A DNA stretch of 64,000 nucleotides from an uncultured Granulosicoccaceae bacterium. GTDB taxonomy: Bacteria > Pseudomonadota > Gammaproteobacteria > Granulosicoccales > Granulosicoccaceae. Below, piece after piece: positions 27,690-56,879 of the stretch. The stretch covers positions 1 through 64,000 of the forward strand of contig CALLMF010000022.1 in NCBI GenBank assembly GCA_938006335.1, read 5' to 3'. Numbering within the stretch: position 1 is the first letter of the stretch; every line of letters begins with the position of its first letter. The translations under genes were made by a program, and so were the position numbers. The notes beneath the pieces are model-generated. The model saw nothing but the letters and a program-made list of their open reading frames with translations. It made no database searches and had not been told where the DNA came from.

Positions 27690-28679
27690 ATGAGCCTTGC
27701 CCAAACAAATGCTTCCCTCACGGATGGTGAGTCAAGTTTCCTGCCCGCTGCTGTCGAGTCTCTTGCGATGCAGAGTCAGGCGCTTGAGCGAATCGCTGAC
27801 CGATTGGGACCCGAGTTCGATCAGGCGGTACGACTGATACTCGGCTGCAAAGGGCGGGTGATCGTGTCCGGTATGGGCAAGTCAGGCATCGTTGGAAAAA
27901 AGATCGCCGCCACACTTGCATCCACGGGTACGCCGAGTTTTTACGTGCATCCCGGTGAGGCAATTCACGGTGACCTCGGCATGATCACCGCGGACGATCT
28001 CATCCTGTTGATCTCGCACAGCGGCGAGACCGACGAAATCCTCCGGATGATGCCGTCCTTGCGTTACTTCGGTAATCGCATCATCGGCATGGTCGGGGCT
28101 GCGGATACCAGCGTAGGCAACCAGGCTGATGTCACGCTACGTGTCGATATCGAGCGCGAGGTCTGCCCGAATAACCTCGCACCGACGACCTCCGCACTTG
28201 CCGTCATGGCGCTTGGCGATGCGCTCGCTGTCTGTCTTATCAAGGCGAGAGATTTCAAACCGACCGACTTTGCACAGTTCCACCCGGGTGGGATGCTGGG
28301 CCGACGTCTGCTATCGAAGGTGTCCGATGTAATGATCAGTGAAGATCTGCCCATCATCGGCCCGGATGAGAGCGTACGAGAAGCTGTGTTCTGCATGACT
28401 TCCGGTCGCTTGGGTCTGGCGATCATTGCAAGTGCTGGCCGACTGCTCGGTATCCTCACCGATGGTGACTTGCGGCGCGCGTTGATCATGGATCCGACCA
28501 TGATGGAGAAGGAAGTGCGCAACTTCATGACACCGGTACCGGTCACCATCAACCAGGATGCGATGGTCTCCGATGCGGAGATCCTGATGCGAAAGTACAA
28601 GATTCGCGCACTGGTCGTGACAGACGAGCGAGACGTTGTCAGTGGCCTGCTGGAGATTTTTGCTGACTGCCGCAATTGA
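27690..28679 (+). CDS. kdsD: D-arabinose 5-phosphate isomerase (KdsD/KpsF)
   Basis: A 329-residue protein with a SIS sugar-isomerase domain (GKSGIVGKKIAATLASTGTPSF, HGDLGMI, SHSGETDEI) in the first ~190 residues and two CBS domains (MISEDLPIIGPDESV; NFMTPVPVTINQDA) at the C terminus. It converts ribulose-5-phosphate to arabinose-5-phosphate, the first step to Kdo. Placed at the head of kpsM-T-E-D it matches KpsF of group 2 capsules, supplying Kdo for the capsule linker. It has no visible ribosome site stronger than average. Confidence 0.92.
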   Translation: MSLAQTNASLTDGESSFLPAAVESLAMQSQALERIADRLGPEFDQAVRLILGCKGRVIVSGMGKSGIVGKKIAATLASTGTPSFYVHPGEAIHGDLGMITADDLILLISHSGETDEILRMMPSLRYFGNRIIGMVGAADTSVGNQADVTLRVDIEREVCPNNLAPTTSALAVMALGDALAVCLIKARDFKPTDFAQFHPGGMLGRRLLSKVSDVMISEDLPIIGPDESVREAVFCMTSGRLGLAIIASAGRLLGILTDGDLRRALIMDPTMMEKEVRNFMTPVPVTINQDAMVSDAEILMRKYKIRALVVTDERDVVSGLLEIFADCRN

Positions 28680-28689
28680 TGGATTTGCA

Positions 28690-29094
28690 ATGAAATCGTC
28701 AATCTTCAATGCAGTGTGCACCGCACGATGCGTGTTGCCTTGCCTGTTGCTGGTGTTGACAGGTTGCGCATCCACGTCGGGCGACGCTCCTGTGCTCGTT
28801 GCTCTGAGCGTTGACACCCCGGAATCGATCGCACGCTCTCAGGCTGATCTTGAAGCCAATGGTGGCCCAGTCTATACCTCGGCCAGCGGACGACAGTGTC
28901 GCCGTACCCTCGCTGCCGATGGATCCTTGATGCTGCAGGCCATCTGCCGCGATGAGAAGGGAAACTGGAGCCAGGGTCGGTCGTTGGAAAGTACGACGCC
29001 CACGATCGTCGACTCCTCGATGATTCAACCCCTGAGTGCGGCAAGTACTGCCATGCGCCAGCTCGCCATCCGCTCGACTTCCACTGTCAATTGA
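28690..29094 (+). CDS. Small lipoprotein of the capsule operon
   Basis: A 134-residue protein from ATG 28690, 11 bp after kdsD. The N terminus is a signal with lipobox LTGC (VLTGCASTSG), so lipid attachment is likely. The mature part has two further Cys (RQCRRT, AICRDE) and no family I recognise. Position between kdsD and kpsM suggests a capsule-assembly or surface-retention role, but this is guilt by location only. Its stop lies one base before the GTG of kpsM. Confidence 0.65.
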   Translation: MKSSIFNAVCTARCVLPCLLLVLTGCASTSGDAPVLVALSVDTPESIARSQADLEANGGPVYTSASGRQCRRTLAADGSLMLQAICRDEKGNWSQGRSLESTTPTIVDSSMIQPLSAASTAMRQLAIRSTSTVN

Positions 29095-29095
29095 C

Positions 29096-29944
29096 GTGAC
29101 TCAGGATGTCGCCAGCACCGAGCCGACACTGACCAGATCACCAGCCGGAACGTTCGCTGATGTGTGTCAGGGTCTGTCCACGCAATCGCGTGTCGTCATG
29201 GCACTCGTGCTTCGTGAAACTCTCAGCCGATACGGGCAGCACAAGCTCGGCTTTCTGTGGGCGTTGGTAGAGCCGATCGTGATGGTCGGCGTGTTTGCCT
29301 CGGTCATGGGCGCGATACGGGGAGGAGACCCTGGCGGTATCCCGATCGTGTTGTTCATGATCACGGGGTTCGTGCCGTTCATGATGTTCCGTGATCCCAT
29401 GAACCAGATGCAGGGAGCCATCGTGTCCAACCGATCACTCATCGGTTTTCCTCAGGTCACGACCTTCGATGTGATCGTGGCTCGTAGCGTGTTGGAATGC
29501 GCGATTCTGTCGATGGTGTTTCCCGTCATCCTGATCCTCGCGCAAGTGGTGCTCGGTCACTCGATACGCGTGGAGAATCCCCTGGGTGTGCTCGCAGCCT
29601 GTGCGCTGTTGATGACACTCGGCACCGGAATCGGATTTCTGTTTGCTGCGCTGGCGCCGGTCATGCCGTCGTCCCGACAGGTATCAACCGCGTTGTTGGG
29701 GCGGCCATTGTTTTTCTCGTCCGGTCTGTTCTTTACCGCGGAATCCTTGCCACCGACGATACGCGAATGGCTGTTGTGGAACCCGATCCTGCACATGCTC
29801 GAATTGCTGCGTTCCGCGTTCTTTTACGAGTTCGAATCCACTCATGCAAGTTGGCACTACGCGACGGTATGGGCGGTAGGCGCACTGGCCTTTGGCATGC
29901 TCGTGCATCAGGCCCTGCGCCGACGCGCCATCGTCGGGCTCTGA
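29096..29944 (+). CDS. kpsM: Capsule polysaccharide ABC exporter, permease (KpsM-like)
   Basis: About 282 residues with six membrane segments of the ABC-2 type. The cytoplasmic N terminus leads into LVLRETLSRYGQHKLGFLWALVEP, the conserved entry of KpsM/CtrC permeases, and the end has LFFTAESLPPTIREWLLWNPILHMLELLR. It forms the inner-membrane channel for the finished, lipid-linked polysaccharide. GTG 29096 is chosen, just after the lipoprotein stop; GTG 29036 would overlap that gene and ATG 29198 would lose part of the amphipathic N terminus. Confidence 0.9.
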   Translation: MTQDVASTEPTLTRSPAGTFADVCQGLSTQSRVVMALVLRETLSRYGQHKLGFLWALVEPIVMVGVFASVMGAIRGGDPGGIPIVLFMITGFVPFMMFRDPMNQMQGAIVSNRSLIGFPQVTTFDVIVARSVLECAILSMVFPVILILAQVVLGHSIRVENPLGVLAACALLMTLGTGIGFLFAALAPVMPSSRQVSTALLGRPLFFSSGLFFTAESLPPTIREWLLWNPILHMLELLRSAFFYEFESTHASWHYATVWAVGALAFGMLVHQALRRRAIVGL

Positions 29945-29954
29945 GGTCACTGCC

Positions 29955-30617
29955 GTGATTCGTCTGGAAAACGTCACCAAACGCTACAAGACCGGGGCAG
30001 GCGTGCGCACGGTTCTCGATAGCGTCAACCTCGACTTTCCCAAGGGCCATAGTGTCGGTATTCTTGGTTTGAACGGTGCCGGCAAGTCGACGTTGGTCCG
30101 CATCATCGGTGACGCCGAGCCGCCGGATTCCGGGCGCGTGGTGCGTCAGGGTCGTGTGTCATGGCCACTGGGTTACACGGGGGGGTTCCAGGTGCAGCTC
30201 ACAGGGCGTGAAAACGCTCGCTTCGTGGCGCGAATCTACGGTGAGAGCCCTCGCTATGTCGAGGCCTTTGCCGAGGAGTTCTCCGAGCTTGGGAGCTACT
30301 TCGATGTGCCGCTGAAGAACTATTCGGCGGGTATGCGTGGGCGTTTTGCCTTTTCGGTGAGCCTGGCCTGCGACTTCGAGTACTACCTGGTTGATGAGGC
30401 GCTGGAGACCGGTGATGCCCGTTACAAGGAGAAATTTCGCCGGGCTTTTGACGAGCGTCGGGAGAATGCCTCGGTCATTCTGGTGTCGCACAACGAGCAG
30501 ACGGTGCGACGGAATTGCGATATGGCCGCAATCCTGCACGAAGGAAAGCTCGATTTGTACGAAGATCTCAAGGAAGCCATGCATCAGTACAAGTTCCTGC
30601 AGACCAAGGCCGCCTGA
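29955..30617 (+). CDS. kpsT: Capsule polysaccharide ABC exporter, ATPase (KpsT-like)
   Basis: A 220-residue ABC ATPase: Walker A GLNGAGKST, signature YSAGMRGR, Walker B YYLVDEAL and a switch His in VSHNEQT. Small size and the GRVSWPLGYTGGFQVQLTGREN block are typical of KpsT/CtrD. It energises export with KpsM. GTG 29955 has GAGG eight bases upstream; the longer reading overlaps kpsM. Confidence 0.93.
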   Translation: MIRLENVTKRYKTGAGVRTVLDSVNLDFPKGHSVGILGLNGAGKSTLVRIIGDAEPPDSGRVVRQGRVSWPLGYTGGFQVQLTGRENARFVARIYGESPRYVEAFAEEFSELGSYFDVPLKNYSAGMRGRFAFSVSLACDFEYYLVDEALETGDARYKEKFRRAFDERRENASVILVSHNEQTVRRNCDMAAILHEGKLDLYEDLKEAMHQYKFLQTKAA

Positions 30618-30620
30618 ACA

Positions 30621-31712
30621 ATGCGCCACATCTTCGGGAGTCTCGGCGTGGTCGTTGGTGTACCGACGCTGCTTGCCGTCATCTATTTCGGGCTGCTCGC
30701 CTCGGACGTGTACGTGTCCGAGTCCCGCTTTGCCATTCGCTCCGCCAAGTCCGGTGCGGCGGTAAGCGGCCTTGCGGCCATCCTGTCGTCACCCATCGTG
30801 TCCAGTTCCAGCAGCGAGTCCATGGTGGTGATCGACTATGCGCGTTCACAGGACATGCTCAAGAGTGTTTCCAGCGAACTTGACGTGCGCGCGCACTTCT
30901 CGCAGCCAGACGTCGACTGGCTTTCACGACTTGACGAGAATGCCTCGGAGGAAGAACTGCTCGAGCACTTCAATCAGCATGTGAGCCTGATCTCCGACAG
31001 TGCCAGTGGCGTGGTGACACTGAAGACGCGCGCCTATGAGCCGGAAGTGGCTCAGCAGCTCGGATCCCTGATCATTGATCTGAGCGAACGTCTGGTCAAC
31101 CAGATGTCAGCCCGCATGGAAGAGGATGCCTTGGCTACCGCTCGCTCGGAAGTGGAACGTGCGGCAGCAAAAGTGCGCGCTGCCAGCGATGTGCTGACCG
31201 AATTCCGTGACGATAATGTGTCGATCAATCCCGCAGCGGAGTCGAATGCGCTACTCAATATCGTCTCGGGTCTTGAAATGCAACTGGTCGAGACTCGCGC
31301 AACCCTGTCGGAAAAACTGTCCTACATGCGCCCGAGCGCACCGGAAGTGGTTGTGCTGCGCAATCGGATAAACGCGCTGGAACGACAGCTTTCCATCGAG
31401 AAGGGCAGGTTGAGCGGCACCGATTCGGGCACGGCGCTAAGCGGCCTCATTGAAAGCTACCAGCCATTGGTGCTGGAACAGGAAATTGCCCAACAGCAGT
31501 ATGCGTCGGCGCTGAGTTCCTTGGAGCTTGCGCGCATCGAGGCACAGCGCAAGAAGCAGTACGTCGTGACCTTCATTCGACCAAGCCTCCCGGATCAGGC
31601 ATTGGAGCCGCGACGCTTCAATCGCATCATGACCGTTGCGCTGTTCTCCTTCCTGATCTATCTGGTAGGTGGGCTGATGTGGTCGGCACTCAAGGATCAT
31701 ATCGGTCGATGA
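30621..31712 (+). CDS. kpsE: Capsule export inner-membrane protein (KpsE/CtrB-like)
   Basis: A 363-residue polysaccharide co-polymerase-like protein: an N-terminal membrane helix (VVVGVPTLLAVIYFGLLASDVYV), a large periplasmic coiled-coil part (RSEVERAAAKVRAASDVLTEF) and a C-terminal helix (FNRIMTVALFSFLIYLVGGLM). It bridges the ABC exporter with the outer-membrane KpsD channel. It starts 3 bp after kpsT and overlaps kpsD as ATGA. Confidence 0.9.
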   Translation: MRHIFGSLGVVVGVPTLLAVIYFGLLASDVYVSESRFAIRSAKSGAAVSGLAAILSSPIVSSSSSESMVVIDYARSQDMLKSVSSELDVRAHFSQPDVDWLSRLDENASEEELLEHFNQHVSLISDSASGVVTLKTRAYEPEVAQQLGSLIIDLSERLVNQMSARMEEDALATARSEVERAAAKVRAASDVLTEFRDDNVSINPAAESNALLNIVSGLEMQLVETRATLSEKLSYMRPSAPEVVVLRNRINALERQLSIEKGRLSGTDSGTALSGLIESYQPLVLEQEIAQQQYASALSSLELARIEAQRKKQYVVTFIRPSLPDQALEPRRFNRIMTVALFSFLIYLVGGLMWSALKDHIGR

Positions 31713-33406
31713 TGAACAAGGTATCGCTCATGTCTCCCGTTGACGCGTTGACCAGGCGCCTGCACATGATGCTGACGCGCGTGGCGCTGTCGGCGATTCT
31801 GATGGCGTGTTTTCCAGCCATGGCGCAGACCTTGGACCCGTCCAATGCCGCACCTGTGATGGAAGATCCGGCGGCGACTGCTGTGTTCGAGCAGTCCTCG
31901 CAGCGCAGGAGTGCTGACGGCTCTGTCTTGCCTTACGGCGCCAATCTGTTCAGTGGTGGCTTCAGCAACGATCGGGAAGATGGACTGAATCCCGACTACG
32001 TGTTGCAACCAGGAGATCGCGTCAGCGTGCGCATCTGGGGTGCAATAGAGTTCAACGAGAGTCTCGTGCTCGATCCTCAGGGCAATATCTTCCTGCCGTC
32101 AGTCGGCCCGATTGCCCTGGCAGGTACCCAGAACCGCAATCTCAACGAGCGGGTGCGACAGGCCGTGTCGACAGTCTTTACCGACAATGTACGGGTGTAC
32201 ACCAGTCTGGACGGATCACAGCCGGTAGCTGTCTTCGTGACCGGTGCGGTCGAACAGCCGGGGCGGTTTGCCGGCATTCCATCCAATTCGGTGTTGCACT
32301 TCATCGACCGCGCTGGTGGGATCGATGCAGATCGAGGCAGCTATCGTGACATTCGCATCCTGCGAGCAGGCAGTGTGCTTGCCACTGTCGATCTCTATGA
32401 TTTTCTGCAGAACGGGCAGCTCAAGCAGGTTCAGTTTCAGGACGGTGACACCGTTCTGGTCGCCCCTCGTGGTCCCTCTGTCGAGGTCACCGGAGAGGTA
32501 GGTAATGCAGCCAGGTTCGAACTGACACCCGGTGGGTTTACCGGCGCGGACATCGCGGCGCTTGCGCGTTTGCAGCCTGGCGTGACCCATGCGGGTTTGT
32601 CCGGTACCCGCGCAGGTGAGATGTGGTCGGTGTATCTGCCGGTTGAGGAGTTCATGCAGCAGGCACTGTCCAACGGTGACACGGTCAGCTTTCGAAGCGA
32701 TCAACGCGAGCGTGTGATCGTGGTGGAAGTCGAGGGTTCCTACATTGGGCCTTCGCGTTACGCACTGCCACAAGATGCGCGCTTGCAGGAGCTACTCGAT
32801 CTCATTGAGGTCGATCCGGTACTCGCGGATATCAGTTCGATCTCCATTCGCCGTCCAAGTATCGCTGCGCGCCAGAAAGAGGCTTTGCGCGAAAGCCTGC
32901 AACGGCTTGAGGCGCGATACCTCACAGCCAATTCACAGACCGATGGAGAGGCCGCGATTCGAGCACAGGAAGCGGAGCTGATCGGTCGCTTTGTTGCCAG
33001 TGCCAAGAGCGTCGAGCCGAGTGGTCGGCTTGTTGTCGCACAGGGCGAAGGAGTTGCCAACGTGCAGTTGCAAGCGGGAGATGTGATCACGATTCCGCGC
33101 CATAGTGAGTCTGTGCTGCTCAGCGGTGAAGTGCTGGTCTCGCAGGCGATTCTTGCTCAACCCGGCTTGCGTGCACGGGACTACATAGCAGCAGCCGGTG
33201 GCTTTGCGGAGCAGGCCCTAGAGAAGCGCGTGGTCGTGGTTCACGCCAATGGTGAGGTAGAAAGTGGTGAAAACCCGCGAGTACGGGCCGGAGACGAAAT
33301 TATCGTCCTGCCGAAGGTACCGGTCAAGAACCTGCAGATCGCGGCGACGATCGTGGATATTCTCTACAAGGTGGCGATCGCGGCATCGGTTGCCTTGGCG
33401 CTTTAG
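31709..33406 (+). CDS. kpsD: Capsule polysaccharide export outer-membrane/periplasmic protein (KpsD/Wza family)
   Basis: About 565 residues with a signal sequence (ILMACFPAMAQ, signal peptidase I site after AMA; the LMAC could alternatively be a weak lipobox). The Poly_export domain appears at NPDYVLQPGDRVSVRIWGAIEF and several SLBB-type beta-grasp repeats follow (VFVTGAVEQPGRF; VLLSGEVLVSQAILAQPG). A hydrophobic C terminus (IVDILYKVAIAASVALAL) resembles KpsD of group 2 capsules. It carries polysaccharide through the periplasm and outer membrane. ATG 31709 overlaps the kpsE stop. Confidence 0.9.
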   Translation: MMNKVSLMSPVDALTRRLHMMLTRVALSAILMACFPAMAQTLDPSNAAPVMEDPAATAVFEQSSQRRSADGSVLPYGANLFSGGFSNDREDGLNPDYVLQPGDRVSVRIWGAIEFNESLVLDPQGNIFLPSVGPIALAGTQNRNLNERVRQAVSTVFTDNVRVYTSLDGSQPVAVFVTGAVEQPGRFAGIPSNSVLHFIDRAGGIDADRGSYRDIRILRAGSVLATVDLYDFLQNGQLKQVQFQDGDTVLVAPRGPSVEVTGEVGNAARFELTPGGFTGADIAALARLQPGVTHAGLSGTRAGEMWSVYLPVEEFMQQALSNGDTVSFRSDQRERVIVVEVEGSYIGPSRYALPQDARLQELLDLIEVDPVLADISSISIRRPSIAARQKEALRESLQRLEARYLTANSQTDGEAAIRAQEAELIGRFVASAKSVEPSGRLVVAQGEGVANVQLQAGDVITIPRHSESVLLSGEVLVSQAILAQPGLRARDYIAAAGGFAEQALEKRVVVVHANGEVESGENPRVRAGDEIIVLPKVPVKNLQIAATIVDILYKVAIAASVALAL

Positions 33407-33502
33407 TGGTCGGTCCACAACCATGTGGGCAGACCAGTGGCCATGCGCGTCAATAGCCCGCGGCGCTGGCACAAGGAGTGCTTCCCACCAGGTATCCGTT
33501 GT

Positions 33503-35011
33503 ATGAATCCGATTGCCATGGGCGCACACGCTGCTTCTGTCGAACAAACGGCCAATTCACTGGCTGCGGCACCCGATGCCACGTCTCGCGGCTCGGCGTC
33601 AGACCAGTTGCGAACTGACGATGGTTTTGTTGCCTTGCGCAAGAAGGTCGCTGATGCCGCGCTGAGTGACGCGCGCGAAGCCTTGTCCAAAGGCGACCTG
33701 GACTCAGCGAAAGCTGCGTTCATCGCTGCTCTGGAGGCCCACCCTGGACAAATGAGTGTGTATCGGGAAATCGGATCCTGTCTGTCCGGATTGGGTCTGA
33801 CATCCTGGGCAGAGCATTGTTTCCGAGGCGTGTTGCCAGAGTCCGTAGCGACAGACTGGTTCGGAGGGGACTTCGATTGCGCGGAGCCGCGTCAGCGCGG
33901 CGCAGAGACAAGCTCGAGCGACAAGAACACCGTCTGGTCGAAAGAGGCCATCCGCGTGCGCGTACATGAGCCGTGCCCGCGGCCGCTGCGTAAGCCCGGA
34001 GGCATCGTGCCGCCCACGGACCGAATGTTCAGACCGGCACGAATGACAGCAACCGAAGCGCTGGTTGATAGCGCACCGGGTGGCTCGCTCTGGTTTGATG
34101 GATTCAATCGAGTGGTGCTTGATCGGGATGGAAAGTCACTCGATCGGCATACGCGTGGTAACCCTGCTGTGGTTCGTCATGTGATGCAAACTGCTCAGCC
34201 GATGCACGTGCCCGGGCGCGTATTTTTTGTCGGCAACCGCGGTTACAGCAACTACTACCACTGGATGTTTGACATCCTGCCGTCGATTGATCTGTTTCGC
34301 AATGCGGGATATACCTTCAACGAGAACGATCACATTGCCGTCTATACCAGTGCGAGCCGCTTTCAGAAAGCAGCGCTTCGGCACCTGGGGTTTCCCGAGG
34401 AGCGGGTAGTCGAGCTTGGCGGTACCACGCCGTGGATCGAGGCCGACGAAATGGTGGTTCCCTACTACGCCAATTCGATGGCCATGGCGATGGGCGAGTG
34501 GGTGCCGCGTTTCCTTAAATCCTTGTTCATCGATCAGGCCCCTGCAGGAGTAGGGGACAAGGTACCGTCAGCAGATAAACTGTACTTGTCACGGACTTCC
34601 ACCGCCAGAAATGGACGTTCCATTGGTAACGAAGCCGAACTGATTCGTCATCTGGAGCAGCGTGGATTCACGACGGTGTATCCGGAAGACTATTCCGTTT
34701 TCGAGCAGGCAGCACTCTTTTCCCAAGCCAAGGTCGTACTGGCCGCGCATGGCGCTGGTCTTACCAACATCACGTTTTGCGCACCCGGGACCCGTGTTAT
34801 CGAGCTTTACGGAGACTTCATGCAGCCCTGCTACTGGGTAGTCAGTGATCTTTGTGAGCTCGATTACTACAACCATTACTGTGGACGTAGTGAAGAGATG
34901 GTGGACTACTACGACCGCAGCCACGAGAACCTGCATCAGCTGATGCAAACCGGATTCTCGGTTGACATGAAGGAGCTTGACGAACTGCTGGCTGAGGCAG
35001 GGTGTCACTAG
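33503..35011 (+). CDS. GT61-family glycosyltransferase with TPR-like N terminus (copy 1)
   Basis: About 502 residues from ATG 33503 (an in-frame ATG at 33443 is possible). Residues ~45-115 form a helical, TPR-like pair (ALSKGDLDSAKAAFIAALEAHPG). The GT61 domain follows with GRVFFVGNRGYSNYYHWMF, KLYLSRTSTARNGRSI and VLAAHGAGLTNITFCAPGT near the end. It likely adds a sugar to the capsule repeat; xylose is possible given the UDP-xylose synthase in the locus. It closely resembles the protein at 38053-39489 in order of domains and in motif wording, suggesting duplication. Confidence 0.83.
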   Translation: MNPIAMGAHAASVEQTANSLAAAPDATSRGSASDQLRTDDGFVALRKKVADAALSDAREALSKGDLDSAKAAFIAALEAHPGQMSVYREIGSCLSGLGLTSWAEHCFRGVLPESVATDWFGGDFDCAEPRQRGAETSSSDKNTVWSKEAIRVRVHEPCPRPLRKPGGIVPPTDRMFRPARMTATEALVDSAPGGSLWFDGFNRVVLDRDGKSLDRHTRGNPAVVRHVMQTAQPMHVPGRVFFVGNRGYSNYYHWMFDILPSIDLFRNAGYTFNENDHIAVYTSASRFQKAALRHLGFPEERVVELGGTTPWIEADEMVVPYYANSMAMAMGEWVPRFLKSLFIDQAPAGVGDKVPSADKLYLSRTSTARNGRSIGNEAELIRHLEQRGFTTVYPEDYSVFEQAALFSQAKVVLAAHGAGLTNITFCAPGTRVIELYGDFMQPCYWVVSDLCELDYYNHYCGRSEEMVDYYDRSHENLHQLMQTGFSVDMKELDELLAEAGCH

Positions 35012-35015
35012 GTCA

Positions 35016-36062
35016 ATGGGTATGCCGGACACTGCACGGAACTCAAGTGAGTACACCAGCGCGGAGGGTGCTGTGTTCGAGCAGCGTGCGAAGCGCGTAC
35101 TGTTCTTTGGTTTCAGCGTAACCGAGCAACCCGGATACGTACCCGCATTGAAAGGAATGCTCGGTGAGCGTGAGATCGAGATCGAAAGTCGAGCCATTGG
35201 TGGGATCAACCTCTGCAGCCTTCCGTACATGCACTCGGTCCTCGAATACGAGTGCTACGACCATGTGGTGTTTGAAGTAACAACCTGTCGTCGTTACGCC
35301 GAAGACAACCCTGGTGTTTATGGTGATCCCTTGAAAGAGATCATTGATCAGGTAAGGGCGAGGGGTGCAGAACCGTCCTTCATACATCTGTTTCGAAAGG
35401 GCGTCGACTATTCGCACGACCACATGTTGGATTCAGCAGCGGCCATCTGTGCGGAACGCGATGTCCGGTACCTGAATCTGGTACCGCAGATGGTCGAGTT
35501 CGAGCGGGCTGGTCTGCTCTATCGATTCTTGCGTGATGGCATTCATTCCACCGAAGAGGGTGCTGCACACTATGCGCAAGCGGTACTGCCGTTTCTGGAC
35601 CTGCTCCTCGACGACGGTCGTGATGTGAGACAGCCTGGTGAGCCTGATCCAGCTCCATCGCGCGCACTTGTGCCGATCGACAAGCTGGTTGGTGGACACG
35701 ACTTTTCCAGCTTCAAGCGCGGCAATCTGGTCATGCCGGTGTGCACGATCCCAGGCGGTGAGAGCCTGTCGATCGACATCCCGGCAGGCTATGCACTGGA
35801 AGGATTGATCTATCTGCGAACGCCGCAGGCCGGGCTGATGGAAGTTGATCTCGGCGAGCAAGGCACTCGGCGGGTGCATGCCTTCGATCAACACTCGTAC
35901 TACCGCCGTTATTCGACATGGACGGTGCCAGCCTGTACGACGCCATCGATCACCATCACACAAAGACCGGAGATGCCGGAGGTTGAACTCGTCAAGGGTG
36001 AGTGCGATCCGGGCGAGCGGCTTGGTGAAGTATGCGGTCTATTTCTATCAGCGGGTAGCTGA
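35016..36062 (+). CDS. SGNH-hydrolase-like protein with C-terminal beta domain
   Basis: About 348 residues. The N-terminal ~200 residues look like an SGNH/GDSL fold: VLFFGFSVTEQPGY carries the likely nucleophile Ser and FLRDGIHSTEEGAAHYAQ has the catalytic Asp-x-x-His. The C-terminal ~120 residues are beta-rich (GGESLSIDIPAGYALEGLIYLR) and unnamed. No signal peptide is visible, so a cytoplasmic role modifying sugars, such as acetyl transfer or removal, is suggested. It starts 4 bp after the GT61 gene and is convergent with the secreted repeat protein. Confidence 0.7.
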   Translation: MGMPDTARNSSEYTSAEGAVFEQRAKRVLFFGFSVTEQPGYVPALKGMLGEREIEIESRAIGGINLCSLPYMHSVLEYECYDHVVFEVTTCRRYAEDNPGVYGDPLKEIIDQVRARGAEPSFIHLFRKGVDYSHDHMLDSAAAICAERDVRYLNLVPQMVEFERAGLLYRFLRDGIHSTEEGAAHYAQAVLPFLDLLLDDGRDVRQPGEPDPAPSRALVPIDKLVGGHDFSSFKRGNLVMPVCTIPGGESLSIDIPAGYALEGLIYLRTPQAGLMEVDLGEQGTRRVHAFDQHSYYRRYSTWTVPACTTPSITITQRPEMPEVELVKGECDPGERLGEVCGLFLSAGS

Positions 36063-37753: not shown

Positions 37754-38052
37754 GCGGTGCCGTTCCAAGCGTGGGTGCGAGCGTGTCGCGAAGAAAACTG
37801 CCGCTCACGTACAAGGCGGGTATCGGCGGTTTCCCCGTCGGATGGAAGTAAAGTGCAGCTTCAATCTCCCGAAAACTGATCGAGTGGGCGTTTGTGGCGT
37901 GAACCAGACACGCTCTGGTGGAACAGAAAGTGCTCCCGACCCTTGGGGAGATCCAGGAGCCTGAGATTCAATGACGCTGTCAACACACCGACGCTTGTCG
38001 AGTCTGGTGCTGGGTCGTGCCTGTACCGATCCGTACCTGGACTGTTGAGATA
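37754..38052. other. Divergent intergenic region, possible structured leader
   Basis: About 300 bp between the secreted repeat protein and the second TPR-GT61 gene. No convincing gene was found. At 37912-37960 (plus strand) a nested structure can form: outer GCTCTGG with CCAGGAGC (one bulge) and inner CTCCC with GGGAG. It could be a leader for the downstream glycosyltransferase. No familiar riboswitch was recognised. Confidence 0.3.
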
Positions 38053-41308: not shown

Positions 41309-41367
41309 TCTGTGACGACGGTTGCTACCCATATTCGACGCCTAAAACTGCTACGCCACGAACAGTG

Positions 41368-45007: not shown

Positions 45008-45027
45008 GCCTGCAGCCGGTTTTTCTC

Positions 45028-48395: not shown

Positions 48396-48457
48396 CGCTG
48401 TCGCTGGCCTGGAAACTGCTCCACCGCGTGTACCAAGCTGATATTCGGTAGTTGCCT

Positions 48458-49129: not shown

Positions 49130-49137
49130 AATACAAT

Positions 49138-49331: not shown

Positions 49332-50351
49332 ATGAATGACGTTACTTCGCGCCTTGGCAGCCATACTCGTAAACGCATTCTGGTAACAGGCGGCGCGGGC
49401 TTTCTTGGTTCGCACCTGTGTGAGCGTTTACTGGCCGATGGCAATGAAGTCATCTGCATGGACAACTACTTTACCGGCTCTAAAAAGAACATCCAGCCGT
49501 TGCTGGACAACCCGGCTTTCGAGTTGATGCGTCATGACGTGACCTTCCCGATCTACCTCGAGATCGACGAAATCTACAACCTGGCGTGCCCTGCATCGCC
49601 CATTCACTACCAGCACGATCCGGTACAGACCACCAAGACAAGCGTGCACGGTGCCATCAACATGCTGGGTCTTGCCAAGCGCACCGGCGCCAAGATCTTC
49701 CAGGCCTCGACCAGTGAAGTCTACGGTGATCCGAAAGTGCACCCGCAAAACGAATCCTACTGGGGGCATGTCAACCCGATCGGCTTCCGTTCCTGCTATG
49801 ACGAGGGCAAGCGGTGCGCCGAGACCCTGTTTTTCGACTACCACCGTCAGCACGACCTGCGTATCAAGGTAGGCCGTATCTTCAACACCTATGGTCCGCG
49901 CATGCACCCGGCCGATGGCCGTGTGGTATCCAACTTCATCATGCAGGCGCTCACCGGCGAAAGCATCACCATCTACGGTGAAGGCCAGCAGACGCGTTCA
50001 TTCTGCTACTGCCTGGATCTGATCGAAGCTTTTGTTCGCATCATGGCCACGGGAGACGATTTCACCGGCCCTGTCAACATCGGCAACCCGGATGAGTTCA
50101 CGATCCGTCAGCTGGCTGAGAAGGTCATCGAAATGACCGGTTCCAAGTCCAAGCTCGAGTTCCGCGATCTCCCGAGTGATGATCCGACCCAGCGTCGCCC
50201 CGATATCTCGCTCGCCAAGGAAAAGCTCGATTGGGTGCCTTCCGTCAATCTTGAGCAGGGTCTTGCCAAGACCATCGAATATTTCGACGCTCTGTTGAAG
50301 GGTAACGATCTGACAGCCGCGTCGGCCGTCCCGGTACAAAAGGCATCGTAA
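49332..50351 (+). CDS. UDP-glucuronate decarboxylase (UDP-xylose synthase, UXS)
   Basis: A 339-residue extended SDR. The start [19 protein letters not shown] is the NAD site. [30 protein letters not shown] and the YxxxK catalytic pair ([11 protein letters not shown]) with [19 protein letters not shown] are hallmarks of UXS, not of UDP-glucose epimerases. It decarboxylates UDP-glucuronate to UDP-xylose in the cytosol, providing a xylosyl donor. Two bases later begins rmlA, so they are an operon. Confidence 0.92.
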
Positions 50352-50353
50352 CA

Positions 50354-51253
50354 ATGAAGGGGATCATTCTTGCTGGTGGGTCCGGGACACGGTTGCACCC
50401 GATCACGCAAGTGGTCTCCAAGCAGTTGCTGCCGGTCTACGACAAGCCCATGGTGTACTACCCGCTGAGCACGTTGATGCTCGCCGGGATCAAGGACATC
50501 CTGTTGATCTCCACCCCCCGCGACGTGCCGCTGTTCCATCAGTTGCTTGGAGACGGCAGTCGCTGGGGCATCAATCTCGAATACGCGGTGCAGCCGTCTC
50601 CGGACGGTCTTGCACAAGCGTTCCTGATCGGTGAAGAATTCATTGGTGACGATGATGTCGCCCTGATCCTTGGCGACAACATCTTTCATGGCCATGACTT
50701 GTCCACGCTGCTGTCAAACGCCGTTTCTCGGCCTAGCGGCGCTAGTGTGTTCGCCTATCAGGTGTCTGATCCGGAACGTTATGGTGTGGTCTCGTTTGAT
50801 GAGCACGGACGCGCTCTGGACATCGAGGAGAAGCCAGCCAGACCCAAGTCCAACCATGCGGTTACTGGCTTGTATTTCTATGACAACGATGTGGTTGACA
50901 TTGCCAAATCCGTCGAACCGTCGCCACGTGGCGAGCTCGAAATTACTGACGTCAACAAGACCTACCTCGAACGAGGGGACTTGATGGTCGAGGTCATGTC
51001 ACGCGGTTTCGCCTGGCTGGATACGGGAACGGGCGAGTCCTTGCTTGAAGCGGGGCAGTTTGTGGCAACGCTTGAAAGTCGCCAGGGCGTCAAGATTGCC
51101 TGCCCGGAAGAGATCAGCTGGAGAAATGGCTGGATTTCCGATGCGGACATGCTCGCCATGGGCGCAGCTTTGAGCAAGAATGGCTACGGGCGCTATCTGC
51201 GATCCTTGGTCGAAGAGCAAAGCCAGCTGACTCCACTCAAGCTCGCCAGCTAA
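50354..51253 (+). CDS. rmlA: Glucose-1-phosphate thymidylyltransferase
   Basis: A 299-residue nucleotidyltransferase: [17 protein letters not shown] at the N terminus, [30 protein letters not shown] and [19 protein letters not shown]. It makes dTDP-glucose, precursor of dTDP-rhamnose and other deoxysugars. No rmlB, rmlC or rmlD follow here, so later steps must be encoded elsewhere. It begins 2 bp after UXS and is convergent with a GT2 gene. Confidence 0.95.
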
Positions 51254-51270
51254 CGGTCAGTGCCCTGATC

Positions 51271-52326
51271 TCAGGGCTCCAGATCGATATGCTTGCCGCG
51301 ATATCGCTGTGTGATCAACAGTACCACCGCGACGCGCAAGCGATGCATGAATCCGCGCTTGAGAAAGCCGCCTTTGAGGACCACGGCCAGTAGCGCAGCG
51401 CGTGAGCGCGACAGGCAGAGATAGTCGTGAAAGTCCCGCAGCACCTGCAGGTCTGCTTCGCTTGGGCGCGGGCGATGCTCGTGGCATTCGAGCAAGGCGC
51501 CGACCGCATCGGTGCGGCAGTCTTCCTTGAAAGGCAATTTGAAATTGCGCTGCACGACGCGGTGCAGTGATGTGCTCCGCAGAGCGGCGCTGGCGCCGGG
51601 ATTGATACTGCCAGCGGGATTGCTTGCGTTACTTGAGTGAAGTCGATACGAGACCAGCGTGTCGGGCACAAAGCACCGGCGGCCGTAGAGTTCAGCCACG
51701 ACTGCGAGCCACCAGTCGTGGACATGCACACCCGTTGGAAAGGGCAATGCAAGCATCGCGAGCGCGCGGTTCATCAGACAGGTATTACCCATGACACCGT
51801 TCTGGCCCAGTACTCGTGCAAGATTCGGTTCGTCGTCAATGTCATAGCCGCGTGTGCTGACAAACGATGAAGCAATCTCGATCCTGTGTTCATCGACGAT
51901 GACCAGATCCGAGTGGGCGAGATGCGGGGTGGCGGCACCCAGCACCTGCTCGGAAGCCAGGAGACGCTCCATGCCGGCCGCGATCCTGTCGGAGTGCCAT
52001 ACGTCGTCCTGATCGCTCAGTGCAATGTAGTCGGCGCCACTGTCGAGCGCTTGTGCAATCCCGCGGGCAAAGTTGCCGACGTAGCCGAGGTTGCTCGTAT
52101 GCGCGAACACCTCAGCCTCAGCTGGGTGTGATTGCGCGATCGCTACGCTGTTGTCATCCGAGGCATCATCGTGCACCCGGATATTCACGGGCCACGACTG
52201 TTGCTGGATGGACTCCAGCTGCTCCGCCAGGTGCTGCTGACCGCGAAAAGTGCACAGAACCACGGCAACGCGTGGTCTGGGATCTACCGCTGGGCCGTCC
52301 TGTCGGATGTCGGAATCAGTGGTCAT
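51271..52326 (-). CDS. GT2-family glycosyltransferase (rhamnosyltransferase-like)
   Basis: A 351-residue GT-A enzyme: VAVVLCTFRGQQHLAEQLESI, DDASDDNSVAIA, YIALSDQDDVWHSDRI (DxD motif) and GVHVHDWWLAVVAELYG. The SDQDDVW and HDWW pattern is typical of GT2 enzymes adding rhamnose or galactose to surface glycans. Pairing with rmlA is consistent with rhamnose but is not proof. It overlaps the upstream GT2 gene by ATGA. Confidence 0.87.
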   Translation of the reverse strand: MTTDSDIRQDGPAVDPRPRVAVVLCTFRGQQHLAEQLESIQQQSWPVNIRVHDDASDDNSVAIAQSHPAEAEVFAHTSNLGYVGNFARGIAQALDSGADYIALSDQDDVWHSDRIAAGMERLLASEQVLGAATPHLAHSDLVIVDEHRIEIASSFVSTRGYDIDDEPNLARVLGQNGVMGNTCLMNRALAMLALPFPTGVHVHDWWLAVVAELYGRRCFVPDTLVSYRLHSSNASNPAGSINPGASAALRSTSLHRVVQRNFKLPFKEDCRTDAVGALLECHEHRPRPSEADLQVLRDFHDYLCLSRSRAALLAVVLKGGFLKRGFMHRLRVAVVLLITQRYRGKHIDLEP

Positions 52327-53252
52327 GTCAGGCCGATAACCCGCGCCAGTTGGCTTCTGAGTCTCTGGTGCAAGTGGCGCAGTCCCTCAGGCTCACTTGC
52401 GGGGCGTCGAATGTCCGCGGGCAAGTGGGCCAGATAGGGGTCGTGCTCAAGCAGCTTCCCCCACCGTTCGTGCATGAAAGCGACCTCGCTGGCGTGCCGG
52501 CGACGGGCTTCCGGATCACGTCGGCTACCGCTCCGACGGGACACGGATTCGTGGTGATACAGCATGGCATCGGGTGCCCAGATGCATCGGTAGCCTGCGA
52601 TGTCCGCCCGCAGGCACAGGTCCACATCGTTCCAGGCAATGGCGAGTTGTTCCTCAAAGCCGTTGATTTCCTCGAAGACCTCACGCCGTAACAGCAGGCA
52701 GGCACCGGTGACGGCACTGACCCGTCGGGGTTTGGTCAGCCAGTCTGAGGGGCCCGGGTCATGCCGATCGCGTCCCTTGAAGGGATGTCCGGCCACGCGC
52801 CCCATGCCGAGCATCACACCCGCGTGTTGAACGGTGCCGTCCGGATAGAGCAGTTTGGCTCCGACGCAACCGGTCAGCGGATGGCTTGCGTGAGAAATCA
52901 GCGTCCGCAGCCAGTGACCACTGTCAATCACCTCGATGTCGTCGTTCATCAGACACAGGAAATCCCCTCGGGCGCTAGCCGCAGCGGCGTTATTGAGCCT
53001 GGAATAGTTGAATGGGGATGGGTCGCGGATAACGCGTACCGACTCGAAGCCTTCAGCACGAAGCCGCTGTTCCGCATTATCCAGCCATCCGCACGCCGCC
53101 TCTTGATCGCTACCGTTGTCGACAATCAGCAGCTCGATCCGGTGGTTTCTTGTGGTCGGGATGAGGCTTGTGGTGAGCGTGTCCAGCAGTGCCACCTGAT
53201 TGCGCGTCGGCACGATGATTGATGTCAGTGGCGTCGTGGGCGTGGGTGACAT
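52323..53252 (-). CDS. GT2-family glycosyltransferase
   Basis: About 309 residues from ATG 53252 (the longer ORF to 53411 starts with a basic, improbable stretch). GT-A motifs are TSIIVPTRNQVALLDTL, LLIVDNGSD, FNYSRLNNAAAASARGDF and CLMNDDIEV, with VTGACLLLRREVFEEINGF and AWNDVDLCLRADIAGYRC at the acceptor end. It resembles O-antigen and capsule GT2 enzymes. A 150-bp divergent gap separates it from kpsC. Confidence 0.87.
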   Translation of the reverse strand: MSPTPTTPLTSIIVPTRNQVALLDTLTTSLIPTTRNHRIELLIVDNGSDQEAACGWLDNAEQRLRAEGFESVRVIRDPSPFNYSRLNNAAAASARGDFLCLMNDDIEVIDSGHWLRTLISHASHPLTGCVGAKLLYPDGTVQHAGVMLGMGRVAGHPFKGRDRHDPGPSDWLTKPRRVSAVTGACLLLRREVFEEINGFEEQLAIAWNDVDLCLRADIAGYRCIWAPDAMLYHHESVSRRSGSRRDPEARRRHASEVAFMHERWGKLLEHDPYLAHLPADIRRPASEPEGLRHLHQRLRSQLARVIGLT

Positions 53253-53401
53253 GCGAATTGCAGGATGCGAGGGTCGTCGCCTGAGGGTGCAGGGAGTGTG
53301 CCTGTTGCTGCTCCTGTCGATATTGTCGGCACGTTTGAACGCGGTGGCTTGATTCCTGCTGCGGCTCTTCAGACGAGCCCGCTCGGGCTGCCCTTGTAGA
53401 T

Positions 53402-55582
53402 ATGCGCGCACGTGTCACCGCTCAACCGATGAAGTCTGCTGCCCGCACACACGAGTCTGGAAGCGCAGCCTCTGCGGATGCTGCGTCTGCCGCTGAACCT
53501 GACGGTAGCAGGGCGAGTGGTGTACGTGTTGCCGTTTCGGATTCGCGTGGTATTCGCTCGCTCGCTCACCTCGATCGGTTCCTCGGAGTAGAGCGTATCC
53601 TGTCCATCCCGGACTCACGGCGAGCCAACTTGAATCCCGATGTGGCGCTTGTCTGGGGACGCAAGGAGACCGGCACCGCAACCGAGTCCCACGCGCGCAC
53701 GGCTGGCATTCCTGTCTGGCATCTGGAGGATGGCTGGATTCGGACGTGTTCCTCGGATGCACATTCGCGTCGGGTCTATTCATTGCTGGTGGATCCTGTG
53801 GGCGTCTACTACGACGCATCACGCCCTTCGTTGATCGAGCGTGAACTCACCAACGAGTTGTTTGCTGACGACAGTGACCCACGTTTGGCCCAGGCCAGAC
53901 AGTGGCGTCAGAAACTAGTCGCAGCAGGGGTCACTAAATACAACTGGGTGATGCCAGGTGATGCGCATCTACCTTCAAAGCCCTTCGTGCTCGTGGTTGA
54001 TCAGACCCGGGATGATGCGTCGGTCGTCTTCGGTGGTGCCGACACTTCTCACTTTACGGCGATGCTCGACGCTGCGCTTGATGAGAATCCGGGGATCGAC
54101 GTTGTTGTTCGCACTCACCCAGATGTGGTGAGTGGTCGACGTGAGGGTTACCTTGGCGACGCCGCGGATAGGCCTCGGGTACGGCTTGTGGCGGGTACCG
54201 ATAATGCGTTTTCGTGGCTGAAGCATGCACAGAAGATATATACGGTCACGTCCCAGCTCGGTTACGAGGCCTTGCTCGTGGAGCGTGAGGTGGTCGTGTT
54301 TGGTGCGCCGTTCTACGCTGGCTGGGGGCTGACAGACGATCGATCCTCACACGTGGCCTTGCAACGTCGTCGTGATACACGTGCACGAAGCTGCACGATC
54401 GATGAGCTGTTTCATGCCTCGCATATCTCGCTGTGTCGCTATCGTTCGCCTGTCGATGGCACGGAGTGGACTCTCGGTGACTGTCTGGATCATGTGGCCT
54501 TGCAGCAGGACATGTTCATGCGCAATGCCAAACGCCTTTTTGCTGTAGGTATCACGCCGTGGAAGCGCCGTTACATCGAACAGTACTTGCGCTCGCCCGG
54601 TGGTTCCTTGCGATTCGGTTCGCAGCGCGCGGCAGAGACGGCTCTTGCAAAGGGAGAAGTCGACGCCCTGGTTACATGGAGCTTCCGGAAAGCGCCTGCC
54701 GTAAGTGCTGACGTGGAATTGTGGCGGCTTGAAGACGGATTTGTACGATCAGTAGGGCTGGGTTCGGACTACACGCCTCCGGGTTCCCTGGTTGTCGATA
54801 CATCAGGCTTGTATTTCGACGCTGGTGCCCCAAGCGATCTGGAGAAATTATTGAACGACTACGAGTGCACTCCCAGTGAAGTGCTCCGAGCTTCGCGTCT
54901 CAAGCGCCGAATCGTTGAAGCAGGCGTCAGCAAGTACGGCGGCGGCAGTGTGGGGAAAACACCTAGCCGTCCTGCCGACAAGAAGGTCGTTCTGGTCGTA
55001 GGGCAGGTCGAGTCTGACGAATCGATCCGCCGTGGGTGTTTTGAAGTGGCGACCAATGCGGCCCTGCTACAAGCGACCCGAAAGCATGGTCCCAATGACT
55101 GGATCGTGTATCGCCCTCATCCCGATGTGGTCAGCGGCAACCGGAAGGGAGCGGTCGATGCCGGTACGCTTGCGGCCTGCGCTGACGCGATCGATACATC
55201 ATCATCGATTCACGCAACGCTTGAAAGCGTTGACGACGTGCATGTGATGACATCACTGACCGGTTTCGAAGCCTTGTTGCGTGGGCGCAGGGTCACGACG
55301 TGGGGGGCGCCATTCTATGCAGGTTGGGGTCTCACCGAAGACAAGCAATCGGTGCCAAGGCGACGGCGCAGGCGAACGCTCGAGGAGTTGTTGTACCTCG
55401 CGTTCATCAAGTACCCGCGCTACGTGGATATCGCCACTGGCGAGTTTGTCAGTGTCGAGGCGCTGATCGACACAATTGAAAAACGGCAGGCCGGGCAGTT
55501 GCTACAGCAGCCAAAGACATGGAGTCAACGCCAGGTGTCCAAGCTAGGCAATATAGTTCGGGGTATTTCCTATGCGCCGTGA
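53402..55582 (+). CDS. kpsC: Capsule beta-Kdo transferase KpsC
   Basis: A 726-residue protein made of two similar halves, each with an LEDGW/LEDGF-type block (WHLEDGWIRT near 105; WRLEDGFVRSVG near 440) and each ending in the GFEALL or GYEALL, WGAPFYAGWGL block. KpsC adds Kdo residues in alternating beta-2,4 and beta-2,7 linkage to the lipid anchor that carries group 2-type capsules. The double-domain form is complete. Two ATGs (53402, 53429) are possible. It overlaps kpsS by 11 bp. Confidence 0.93.
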   Translation: MRARVTAQPMKSAARTHESGSAASADAASAAEPDGSRASGVRVAVSDSRGIRSLAHLDRFLGVERILSIPDSRRANLNPDVALVWGRKETGTATESHARTAGIPVWHLEDGWIRTCSSDAHSRRVYSLLVDPVGVYYDASRPSLIERELTNELFADDSDPRLAQARQWRQKLVAAGVTKYNWVMPGDAHLPSKPFVLVVDQTRDDASVVFGGADTSHFTAMLDAALDENPGIDVVVRTHPDVVSGRREGYLGDAADRPRVRLVAGTDNAFSWLKHAQKIYTVTSQLGYEALLVEREVVVFGAPFYAGWGLTDDRSSHVALQRRRDTRARSCTIDELFHASHISLCRYRSPVDGTEWTLGDCLDHVALQQDMFMRNAKRLFAVGITPWKRRYIEQYLRSPGGSLRFGSQRAAETALAKGEVDALVTWSFRKAPAVSADVELWRLEDGFVRSVGLGSDYTPPGSLVVDTSGLYFDAGAPSDLEKLLNDYECTPSEVLRASRLKRRIVEAGVSKYGGGSVGKTPSRPADKKVVLVVGQVESDESIRRGCFEVATNAALLQATRKHGPNDWIVYRPHPDVVSGNRKGAVDAGTLAACADAIDTSSSIHATLESVDDVHVMTSLTGFEALLRGRRVTTWGAPFYAGWGLTEDKQSVPRRRRRRTLEELLYLAFIKYPRYVDIATGEFVSVEALIDTIEKRQAGQLLQQPKTWSQRQVSKLGNIVRGISYAP

Positions 55583-56879
55583 TGTTCTATTGCTGCAAGG
55601 GCCGGTCGGGCCATTCTTTGCGCGTTTCGCACAAGGGATGGAGTCACGAGGTTTTCGTGTCTGGAAAGTCAACTTCAACGGCGGTGACCGGTTCTTCTAC
55701 AAGCAGCCGCGAACTCTGGATTTTACCGGCCGCCTTGAAGACTGGGAACCTCACCTTGAGCGACTGATCATCAACCGGAAGATCGGTCGCATCTATCTTT
55801 TTGGTGACTGTCGCGCTTATCACCGTGTCGCGAGAGAAGTGGCAGAGCGTAACGGTGTTCGCCTGTTCGTGTTCGAGGAGGGTTATATCCGACCGAACTT
55901 CATCACGCTTGAGGAAAACGGCGTCAACGGCCACTCCAGCCTGATGCAGGATCCCATTCGTCTGGATCGCCAGGAAGGTCCGTTACCGACCGAGCATGCA
56001 GTGCCGGGTGGCAGCTTTCGCACAGCTGTAGTGAGCTCGATGTTGTATTACTGGGCGTGTGCTTTTGCCAAGCGACGATACCCGCACTACCGTCATCATC
56101 GACCGCTCAGCTGGTTTGGTGAAGGGAGACGATGGATTCTCTCGGGCCTGCGCAAGGTGCGCTACAGGCTCAGTGAGCGCCGCATGCTGGGCGAGCTATT
56201 GCCCCAGTTCGAGCACAACTACTTCGTATGCCCGCTACAGGTACATTGCGACATGCAGGTCGTGGTGCACTCGGATTACAACTCCATTGAGCACTTCATA
56301 GGGGATGTGCTGGCTTCATTTGCGATGCATGCGCCGACCAACAAGGCGCTGGTATTCAAGCATCACCCCATGGATCGGGCATATACCGACTACGGGGCCG
56401 TGATTTCGAATCTGGCAGCCGAGCTCGGAATTGCCGATCGCGTCTATTATGTGCACGACGTTGATCTTCCGACCTTGCTGCGCAATGCTCAGGGAACCGT
56501 ACTGATCAACTCGACCGTAGGCGTGTCCTCCTTGTTCCACAGAACTCCCGTCAAGGCCCTGGGGCGCGCGGTGTACGACATCGACGGGCTTACCGCTCAG
56601 GAACCGCTCGAAGAGTTCTGGCATGACACGAGACCTGTCGATACCGAGGCCTTTGATACGTTTCGCGCCAACCTGCTGCTACGCAACCAGCTCAATGGAA
56701 ATTTCTTTCGTCGATTGTTGACTGACGATCCAGCGGGCATCGTATGGGCGTCGCGTCTACTTGATCAGCACAGCTTCCATGAGGATCGGCCCGAACGTGT
56801 CAGCCGTCCGACCTTCAGTGTCGTTGAAGGTACCGGCAAGTCAGTATCTGACACCCATCATGGCGATCGCGCTGCCTGA
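55572..56879 (+). CDS. kpsS: Capsule polysaccharide modification/export protein KpsS
   Basis: A 435-residue protein typical of KpsS/LipB: MRRDVLLLQGPVGPFFARFA at the N terminus, YLFGDCRAYHRVAREVAERNG, VFEEGYIRPNFITLEENGVN and GTVLINSTVGVSSLFHRTPVK. KpsS adds the first Kdo to lyso-phosphatidylglycerol, after which KpsC extends it. The 11-bp overlap with kpsC is the usual arrangement. It closes the capsule locus. Confidence 0.93.
   Translation: MRRDVLLLQGPVGPFFARFAQGMESRGFRVWKVNFNGGDRFFYKQPRTLDFTGRLEDWEPHLERLIINRKIGRIYLFGDCRAYHRVAREVAERNGVRLFVFEEGYIRPNFITLEENGVNGHSSLMQDPIRLDRQEGPLPTEHAVPGGSFRTAVVSSMLYYWACAFAKRRYPHYRHHRPLSWFGEGRRWILSGLRKVRYRLSERRMLGELLPQFEHNYFVCPLQVHCDMQVVVHSDYNSIEHFIGDVLASFAMHAPTNKALVFKHHPMDRAYTDYGAVISNLAAELGIADRVYYVHDVDLPTLLRNAQGTVLINSTVGVSSLFHRTPVKALGRAVYDIDGLTAQEPLEEFWHDTRPVDTEAFDTFRANLLLRNQLNGNFFRRLLTDDPAGIVWASRLLDQHSFHEDRPERVSRPTFSVVEGTGKSVSDTHHGDRAA

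Follow-up and report, generated by a model that had tools for sequence, protein, structure and literature searches.

Sulfated polysaccharides were long deemed nearly absent from bacteria other than cyanobacteria (PMC8205485, PMC13390465; here and below, statements on published systems follow excerpts of the papers cited). Sulfated capsules with kps genes are already known. The marine gammaproteobacterium Cobetia marina KMM 1449 carries kpsETMD and kpsSC together with sulfotransferase and rml genes, and its polymer is sulfated on L-rhamnose (PMC11766843). Vibrio sp. KMM 8419 has an ATP-binding cassette (ABC) exporter, sulfotransferases and rhamnose, and its polymer was likewise shown to be sulfated (PMC11641403). 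Synechan is a polymer of Synechocystis PCC 6803 whose sulfate was measured; its xss cluster combines many glycosyltransferases with two sulfotransferases from different subfamilies (PMC8205485). A putative cluster of Actinoplanes uses Wzx/Wzy export (PMC13390465). Here we describe a capsule locus of Granulosicoccus, found in a 64,000-nucleotide stretch of DNA (the window; positions 1 to 64,000 of contig CALLMF010000022.1). It belongs to contig 22 in a 3.8-Mb genome that is 93.75% complete. The locus is of the complete ABC-transporter type (kpsFMTED ... kpsCS, 27690-56879), and its probable product is a capsular polysaccharide, anchored to a lipid, that receives its sulfate in the cytoplasm during assembly.

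The window locus resembles each of these systems in part. Like Cobetia, it belongs to a marine gammaproteobacterium and joins kps, sulfotransferase and rml genes. The Cobetia cluster holds cysN/C, cysD, cysQ, rmlBDAC, guanosine diphosphate (GDP)-mannose genes and wcb genes, whereas in the window's genome rmlBCD and the genes that make 3'-phosphoadenosine 5'-phosphosulfate (PAPS) lie elsewhere. Unlike Cobetia, the window locus contains UXS, GT61 enzymes and three sulfotransferases of different families; this sets the two apart by published description, not by sequence (PMC11766843). The Vibrio locus lacks kpsC in the excerpted account, which proposes an undecaprenyl route (PMC11641403), whereas the window has both kpsC and kpsS. 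Synechan differs in its Wzx/Wzy export, its cyanobacterial host and its lack of an anchor of 3-deoxy-D-manno-oct-2-ulosonic acid (Kdo) (PMC8205485). Escherichia coli K5 offers homologues of KpsC, S, F, E, D, M and T at 29-48% identity and, as here, a protein called sulfotransferase-like. It differs in its gene order, in its unsulfated heparosan backbone and in KfiB, which has no sulfotransferase Pfam match. An earlier note on this DNA had considered sulfation uncommon in group 2-type capsules; given the Cobetia precedent, it is less so than supposed (PMC11766843). What is new is the sugar set, the co-occurrence of three families of sulfotransferase in a single locus, and a module of glycosyltransferase and sulfotransferase. 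We regard the finding as solid and its surprise as moderate, with one testable mechanistic idea. A search of open-licence literature returned nothing on Granulosicoccus together with a sulfotransferase or with capsular polysaccharide.

The genes for export and for the Kdo anchor, all compared with E. coli Nissle, are as follows.

27690..28679, + strand: kpsF, arabinose-5-phosphate isomerase of the Kdo pathway (SIS and CBS Pfam domains)
29036..29944, + strand, true start uncertain: kpsM, ABC exporter permease (PF01061, ABC2_membrane; 31% identity to Nissle KpsM)
29892..30617, + strand, true start uncertain: kpsT, ABC exporter ATPase (PF00005, ABC_tran; 48% to Nissle KpsT)
30621..31712, + strand: kpsE, inner-membrane polysaccharide co-polymerase (29% to Nissle KpsE)
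31679..33406, + strand, true start uncertain: kpsD, outer-membrane export protein (Poly_export and SLBB; 40% to Nissle KpsD)
53402..55582, + strand: kpsC, dual-module beta-Kdo transferase (PF05159, 270 bits; 39% to Nissle KpsC)
55572..56879, + strand: kpsS, first Kdo transferase (PF05159, 268 bits; 40% to Nissle KpsS)

KpsF scores 339 bits against TIGR00393 (cut-off 204) and is 48% identical to KpsF of the Nissle K5 locus. KpsE reaches 292.6 bits with TIGR01010, below the cut-off of 437.5. KpsC matches the PDB structures of KpsC-N (6mgc, E 1e-65) and KpsC-C (6mgd, E 1e-63), which together cover both of its halves. Each module carries the QxxxD and HPD motifs (Q201-D205 with HPD239, Q535-D539 with HPD573). 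KpsS has QxxxD and HP as well, and scores 376.5 bits with NF050054, below the cut-off of 600. QxxxD and HP are the catalytic residues of beta-Kdo transferases (PMC10148158). A two-module KpsC with its motifs, KpsS, and KpsM, T, E and D thus place the locus with ABC-transporter-dependent, Kdo-primed capsules (groups 2 and 3), and here the earlier note was right. It had also read the layout correctly: kpsF-M-T-E-D stands on one side and kpsC-kpsS on the other. This is not the E. coli group 2 order, in which kpsFEDUCS stand together with kpsMT on the far side. It is closer to the group 3 layout (kpsDMTE / kpsSC, called group III in PMC11766843), though kpsF is present. The label "group 2-type" was therefore loose; the presence of kpsF suits it and the gene order does not. 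The E. coli Nissle 1917 assemblies compared (L138, L140) disagree with each other: in NZ_CP007799 kpsS and kpsT are direct neighbours, and in NZ_CP022686 the kfi genes stand between them.

The two kps blocks enclose three proteins with the PAPS-type loops that the earlier note had noticed.

39486..40472, + strand (open frame from 39450): ST1, sulfotransferase-like, with an HxGxxKTGTTSIQ loop
44318..45007, + strand: ST2, Sulfotransfer_1-like protein (PF00685, 20.1 bits against a cut-off of 22, E 4.7e-4)
47568..48395, + strand: ST3, PF03567 sulfotransferase (Sulfotransfer_2, 23.4 bits, cut-off 22)

These three would represent three sulfotransferase families. Their support is unequal, and the earlier count of three sulfotransferases holds firmly for ST3, by profile for ST1, and least for ST2. 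Ten of 11 ST3 homologues match Sulfotransfer_2 (PF03567) at E 0.01 or better. Across all 11, down to 26% identity, three groups of residues are invariant: H17, F19, K20, N21 and G23; S69, S70 and H71; and R91, P93, R96 and S99. We take the first to be the PAPS loop, the SSH group to hold the catalytic histidine, and RxPxxRxxS to be the arginine/serine motif for the 3'-phosphate. Against the PDB, the ST3 profile matches a heparan sulfate 6-O-sulfotransferase best, though weakly (E 0.014). ST3 is rare, occurring in 7 of 369 gammaproteobacterial genomes sampled and in 12 of 57 near relatives, with the window's genome in both counts; a partial match in G042 was not used. A search of plasmids returned four distant records, from marine or gut alphaproteobacteria. 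ST1 as a single sequence has no Pfam match. A profile built from 15 homologues of ST1 matches the PDB sulfotransferase 3rnl (E 5.9e-6), and two of the 15 match Sulfotransfer_3. ST2 carries an RNPxDxxVSxYHF stretch. Of 27 Granulosicoccus genomes, 4 have it, each time between a GT4-GT4 and a GT2-GT4 gene; G001 and G023 lack it there, and the two glycosyltransferase genes are direct neighbours. The earlier note had proposed a comparison with neighbouring genomes, and that comparison supports the set: three further Granulosicoccus genomes have ST2 and ST3, at 63-74% identity and with the gene order kept. The genes of the ST1-ST3 cassette are therefore real, and chance or a misreading of PAPS loops was rejected.

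ST3 has a constant partner in most places where it is found, a glycosyltransferase with two domains. The partner in the window, and the frames in which the two are fused, are these.

45007..47568, + strand (open frame from 44890, start uncertain): GT2-GT4 two-domain glycosyltransferase, partner of ST3 (PF00535 and PF13692)
L122:5739-9299, L123:9938-13639 and L120:11797-15279: Acidimicrobiales fusion frames, with an ST3-type N-terminus and a GT2-GT4 C-terminus

The start of ST3 in the window overlaps the stop codon of GT2-GT4 (TAATG), and the two genes overlap or abut in relatives. Coupling was counted on 27 named loci only, since this set overlaps the set of near-relative genomes. ST3 is adjacent or fused to GT2-GT4 in 22 of them: directly downstream in 15, fused in 4 and just upstream in 3. 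One further locus has GT2-GT4 about 4.6 kb from ST3 on the other strand. All four loci from Acidimicrobiia are fused. Three are single frames of 1160, 1186 and 1233 amino acids, and the fourth, of 662 amino acids, runs off its contig past the start of the GT2 domain. Three more adjacent cases are the window, G023 and G031. That the two are naturally fused across phyla argues strongly that ST3 and GT2-GT4 act on one and the same molecule. In Microbulbifer, three ST3-type genes (L116:9986-18782) and two (L118:9989-16574) stand around one GT2-GT4, beside rmlA.

A more specific reading is tentative, and we would hold it with less than even confidence. ST3 and GT2-GT4 might form one machine in which a sugar, once added, receives its sulfate ahead of the next addition, so that sulfation falls within elongation. 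The machine would consist of two proteins in Gammaproteobacteria and of one fused polypeptide in Acidimicrobiia. The sulfate pattern would then be set during polymerisation, unlike that of animal heparan sulfate, which is set afterwards. The pair would also be a movable module, recruited into Kdo-anchored capsules and into other polysaccharide loci. In the open-licence literature on fusions of glycosyltransferase and sulfotransferase, the sole match concerned the Wzx/Wzy clusters of Actinoplanes.

The tie between sulfotransferases and capsule can be followed across the genus. We examined 21 Granulosicoccus kps loci, many of them cut by contig ends; kpsC is present in 23 of 27 genomes, and the loci of G003 and G006 were left out of the 21. 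At least one relative of ST1-ST3, by profile, occurs in 9 of the 21. Where all seven kps genes were seen, sulfotransferase-like genes accompany them in five of six loci. G024 and G018 carry an ST1-like gene between kpsC and kpsS, and G015 and G013 carry one between purK and kpsF. G000, G018 and G024 have the cassette within their kps locus. In G001 and G026 the cassette and kpsC are on different contigs, and in G023 they are about 64 kb apart; in these three they are therefore not shown to form one locus.

The donor for sulfation can be made by this organism. APS (adenosine 5'-phosphosulfate) kinase exceeds its cut-off three times in the genome, on contigs 14 and 33 and, marginally, on contig 41. 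The PAPS-making genes are a CysNC fusion and a fusion of ATP sulfurylase with APS kinase. A missing PAPS supply was thus rejected as an objection. PAPS also serves normal sulfate assimilation, and the genes therefore permit sulfation without proving it.

The sugar-supply genes and the remaining glycosyltransferases lie between the kps blocks.

33425..35011, + strand: GT61 glycosyltransferase a (PF04577, 95.3 bits)
38017..39489, + strand: GT61 glycosyltransferase b (PF04577, 99.4 bits)
41365..44220, + strand: GT4-GT4 two-domain glycosyltransferase (PF13692/PF00534, two stretches)
49332..50351, + strand: UXS, UDP (uridine diphosphate)-glucuronate decarboxylase, for UDP-xylose
50354..51253, + strand: rmlA, glucose-1-phosphate thymidylyltransferase (TIGR01207, 501 bits)
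51271..52326, - strand: GT2 glycosyltransferase (PF00535)
52323..53411, - strand: GT2 glycosyltransferase (PF00535)

Family matches confirm what had been read here before, namely several glycosyltransferases (two GT61, GT4-GT4, GT2-GT4 and two GT2), UXS and rmlA. UXS matches the human UDP-glucuronate decarboxylase 2b69 (E 4e-119), and given that match it was rejected that UXS is a mere epimerase. At its stated completeness, the genome has no TIGR01207 match above cut-off other than the rmlA of the locus; a second rmlA was accordingly not found. The gene rmlC stands at contig position 86144-86659, followed by rmlD and an rmlB-like gene, about 30 kb downstream of the locus. Since only rmlA is inside, other rhamnose polymers would depend on the capsule locus. 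The earlier note had judged the enzyme set of the locus sufficient for a repeat unit, and this did not hold: in Pfam scans of the locus, no PAPS-making gene, rmlBCD or UDP-glucose dehydrogenase was found, and genome-wide searches place the first two, and the best dehydrogenase matches, elsewhere. The dehydrogenase family PF03721 exceeds its cut-off on contigs 51 and 20. The family leaves the substrate unfixed; these genes could make the substrate of UXS. UXS occurs in 18 and rmlA in 16 of the 21 kps loci, the remaining loci being short or broken contigs. Because both recur in this way, xylose and rhamnose are likely to be constant sugars of the capsule. The GT61 family includes plant xylosyltransferases, and the two GT61 enzymes are candidates for that role.

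Together these genes suggest a pathway. KpsS and KpsC would prime a lipid with beta-Kdo residues. The glycosyltransferases of the locus would extend the primed lipid, with UDP-xylose (from UXS), deoxythymidine diphosphate-rhamnose (from rmlA with the distant rmlC, D and B) and others as likely donors. PAPS from the CysNC or the ATP-sulfurylase/APS-kinase fusion would supply up to three sulfotransferases. ST3, as a unit with GT2-GT4, would sulfate the residue that GT2-GT4 adds or accepts, and KpsMT with KpsED would export the finished chain. We infer catalysis itself, the identity of the sugars, the order of events and the capsule as the substrate; the gene set, the motifs of the Kdo transferases and of the sulfotransferases, and the coupling and fusion of ST3 with its glycosyltransferase can be read in the sequence. 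That sulfation would occur in the cytoplasm and before export, as had been proposed, is argued by the three sulfotransferase-like genes in the locus, the coupling or fusion of ST3, the ST1-like gene between kpsC and kpsS in relatives, and the PAPS enzymes of the genome.

Several observations weigh against capsule sulfation by this locus. Sulfation is predicted here from genes, whereas the Cobetia polymer was shown to carry sulfate (PMC11766843). Contig 22 has no APS kinase, and the PAPS genes lie outside the locus, unlike those of Cobetia and Vibrio; PAPS-synthesis genes inside the cluster, a hallmark named in PMC11641403, are not found here. Of the six loci that show all seven kps genes, G011 is the exception, since none of the three profiles finds a relative there. 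Overall, 12 of the 21 loci, many of them cut, lack such a match. Four of the 27 ST3 loci have no GT2-GT4 in the stretch examined, one of these being cut by a contig end. Single-sequence phmmer searches of the PDB gave no significant sulfotransferase for ST1, ST2 or ST3. The PDB profile search with ST2 gave a best sulfotransferase at E 0.18, behind an unrelated protein at 0.16, and its AlphaFold model failed, with a predicted local distance difference test score (pLDDT) of 33.6. The model of ST1 is also poor (pLDDT 54). In VIA-align, its top rows are NDST1, 3-OST-3 and 3rnl, level with P-loop kinases (adenylate and thymidylate kinases). The structural comparison that the earlier note had suggested thus put sulfotransferases in the top rows for ST1, tied with kinases, and for ST2 it met a model of low confidence.

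The best-placed rival builds on these results. ST1, and perhaps ST2, could be other P-loop enzymes, with ST3 alone carrying out sulfation. We consider this unlikely. In its favour, ST1 has neither a Pfam match nor a fold that parts it from the kinases, and ST2 falls below its Pfam cut-off and is poorly modelled. It is opposed by the match of the ST1 profile to 3rnl, by the two ST1 homologues that match Sulfotransfer_3, and by the E value of ST2 for Sulfotransfer_1 together with its RNPxDxxVSxYHF stretch.

The close coupling of ST3 to a glycosyltransferase would also suit a scaffold. The sulfotransferase-like proteins might be non-catalytic helpers that hold a glycosyltransferase complex together, a role ascribed in E. 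coli K5 to KfiB, with KfiA and KfiC as its partners. KfiB is a putative sulfotransferase in one account (PMC13171606) and a stabiliser of KfiA-KfiC or an export helper in another (PMC12834895), and the K5 heparosan is unsulfated. The 562-amino-acid protein between kfiA and kfiC in Nissle, KfiB by its place, gives no sulfotransferase Pfam match at E 0.1; the sequence of its first loop is GHPGSKYQ. In ST3, by comparison, the loop lysine, the SSH histidine and RxPxxRxxS are kept throughout the 11 homologues, as catalysis would predict. Since the window proteins keep their motifs and KfiB does not, catalysis is favoured, short of proof, and the scaffold seems improbable. Very unlikely, finally, is that active sulfotransferases serve mainly a lipopolysaccharide or lipid and stand in the capsule locus by chance or through shared export: the ST3/GT2-GT4 pair does occur at sites with no kps genes in the stretch examined (e.g. 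L108-L114, beside rmlA and GT61), and any further rhamnose polymer has to draw on the rmlA of the locus too, but the cassette lies within the kps locus in the three genomes named above and, in G024 and G018, an ST1-like gene stands between kpsC and kpsS. Sulfation of the capsule while it is built remains the preferred reading.

The locus contains further proteins.

28693..29094, + strand (frame from 28636): small outer-membrane-lipoprotein-like protein (DUF5061, 24.7 bits, cut-off 23.6)
about 35013..36062, + strand: SGNH/GDSL-like protein, possible O-acyl esterase or transferase (GxS-type and DGIHSTEEG blocks read from the translation)
36077..37768, - strand: secreted GlyGly-CTERM protein, antisense within the locus (TIGR03501, 21.3 bits, cut-off 15.5)
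40571..41308, + strand: protein with no Pfam family, part of the conserved cassette
48452..49129, + strand: 225-amino-acid protein with a C-terminal membrane helix and no Pfam family

The protein at 48452-49129 has a homologue in all 21 Granulosicoccus kps loci examined, and it would thus be a core capsule gene with no known family. Homologues of the 40571-41308 protein, at 35-44% identity, hold the same position in G018, G023, G024 and G026. The earlier note had called the protein near 35013 an SGNH protein; the two sequence blocks are there, but no Pfam family covers it, and the closest PDB entry, a GDSL-like protein, scores a non-significant E of 2. The GlyGly-CTERM protein has a long repeat rich in T, D and G, with partial homologues (45-47% over about 210 amino acids) in the G023 and G024 loci. 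It may be a capsule-binding surface protein.

The surroundings of the locus are constant. To its left lies purK in all seven genomes whose left edge was fetched, the window included; it adjoins kpsF or is one ST1-like gene away, except in G021. To the right, fumarase and trpE are found in all five Granulosicoccus genomes whose right edge was fetched. The interior differs among species of the genus. Constant flanks with a variable interior give the locus a typical capsule-locus shape. A T2SSE/PilT-like ATPase gene (56903-58081) flanks kpsS, and similar genes stand there in several Granulosicoccus species.

Granulosicoccus is prominent on the surface of kelp (PMC9238374). Kelp itself contains abundant sulfated polysaccharides, and a coat bearing sulfate could matter for the life of the genus there. 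The pairing of glycosyltransferase and sulfotransferase, with its natural fusion, means that a single purified protein would suffice to test directly whether sulfate is added while the chain grows or afterwards. The same pair may give a route to defined sulfated glycans.

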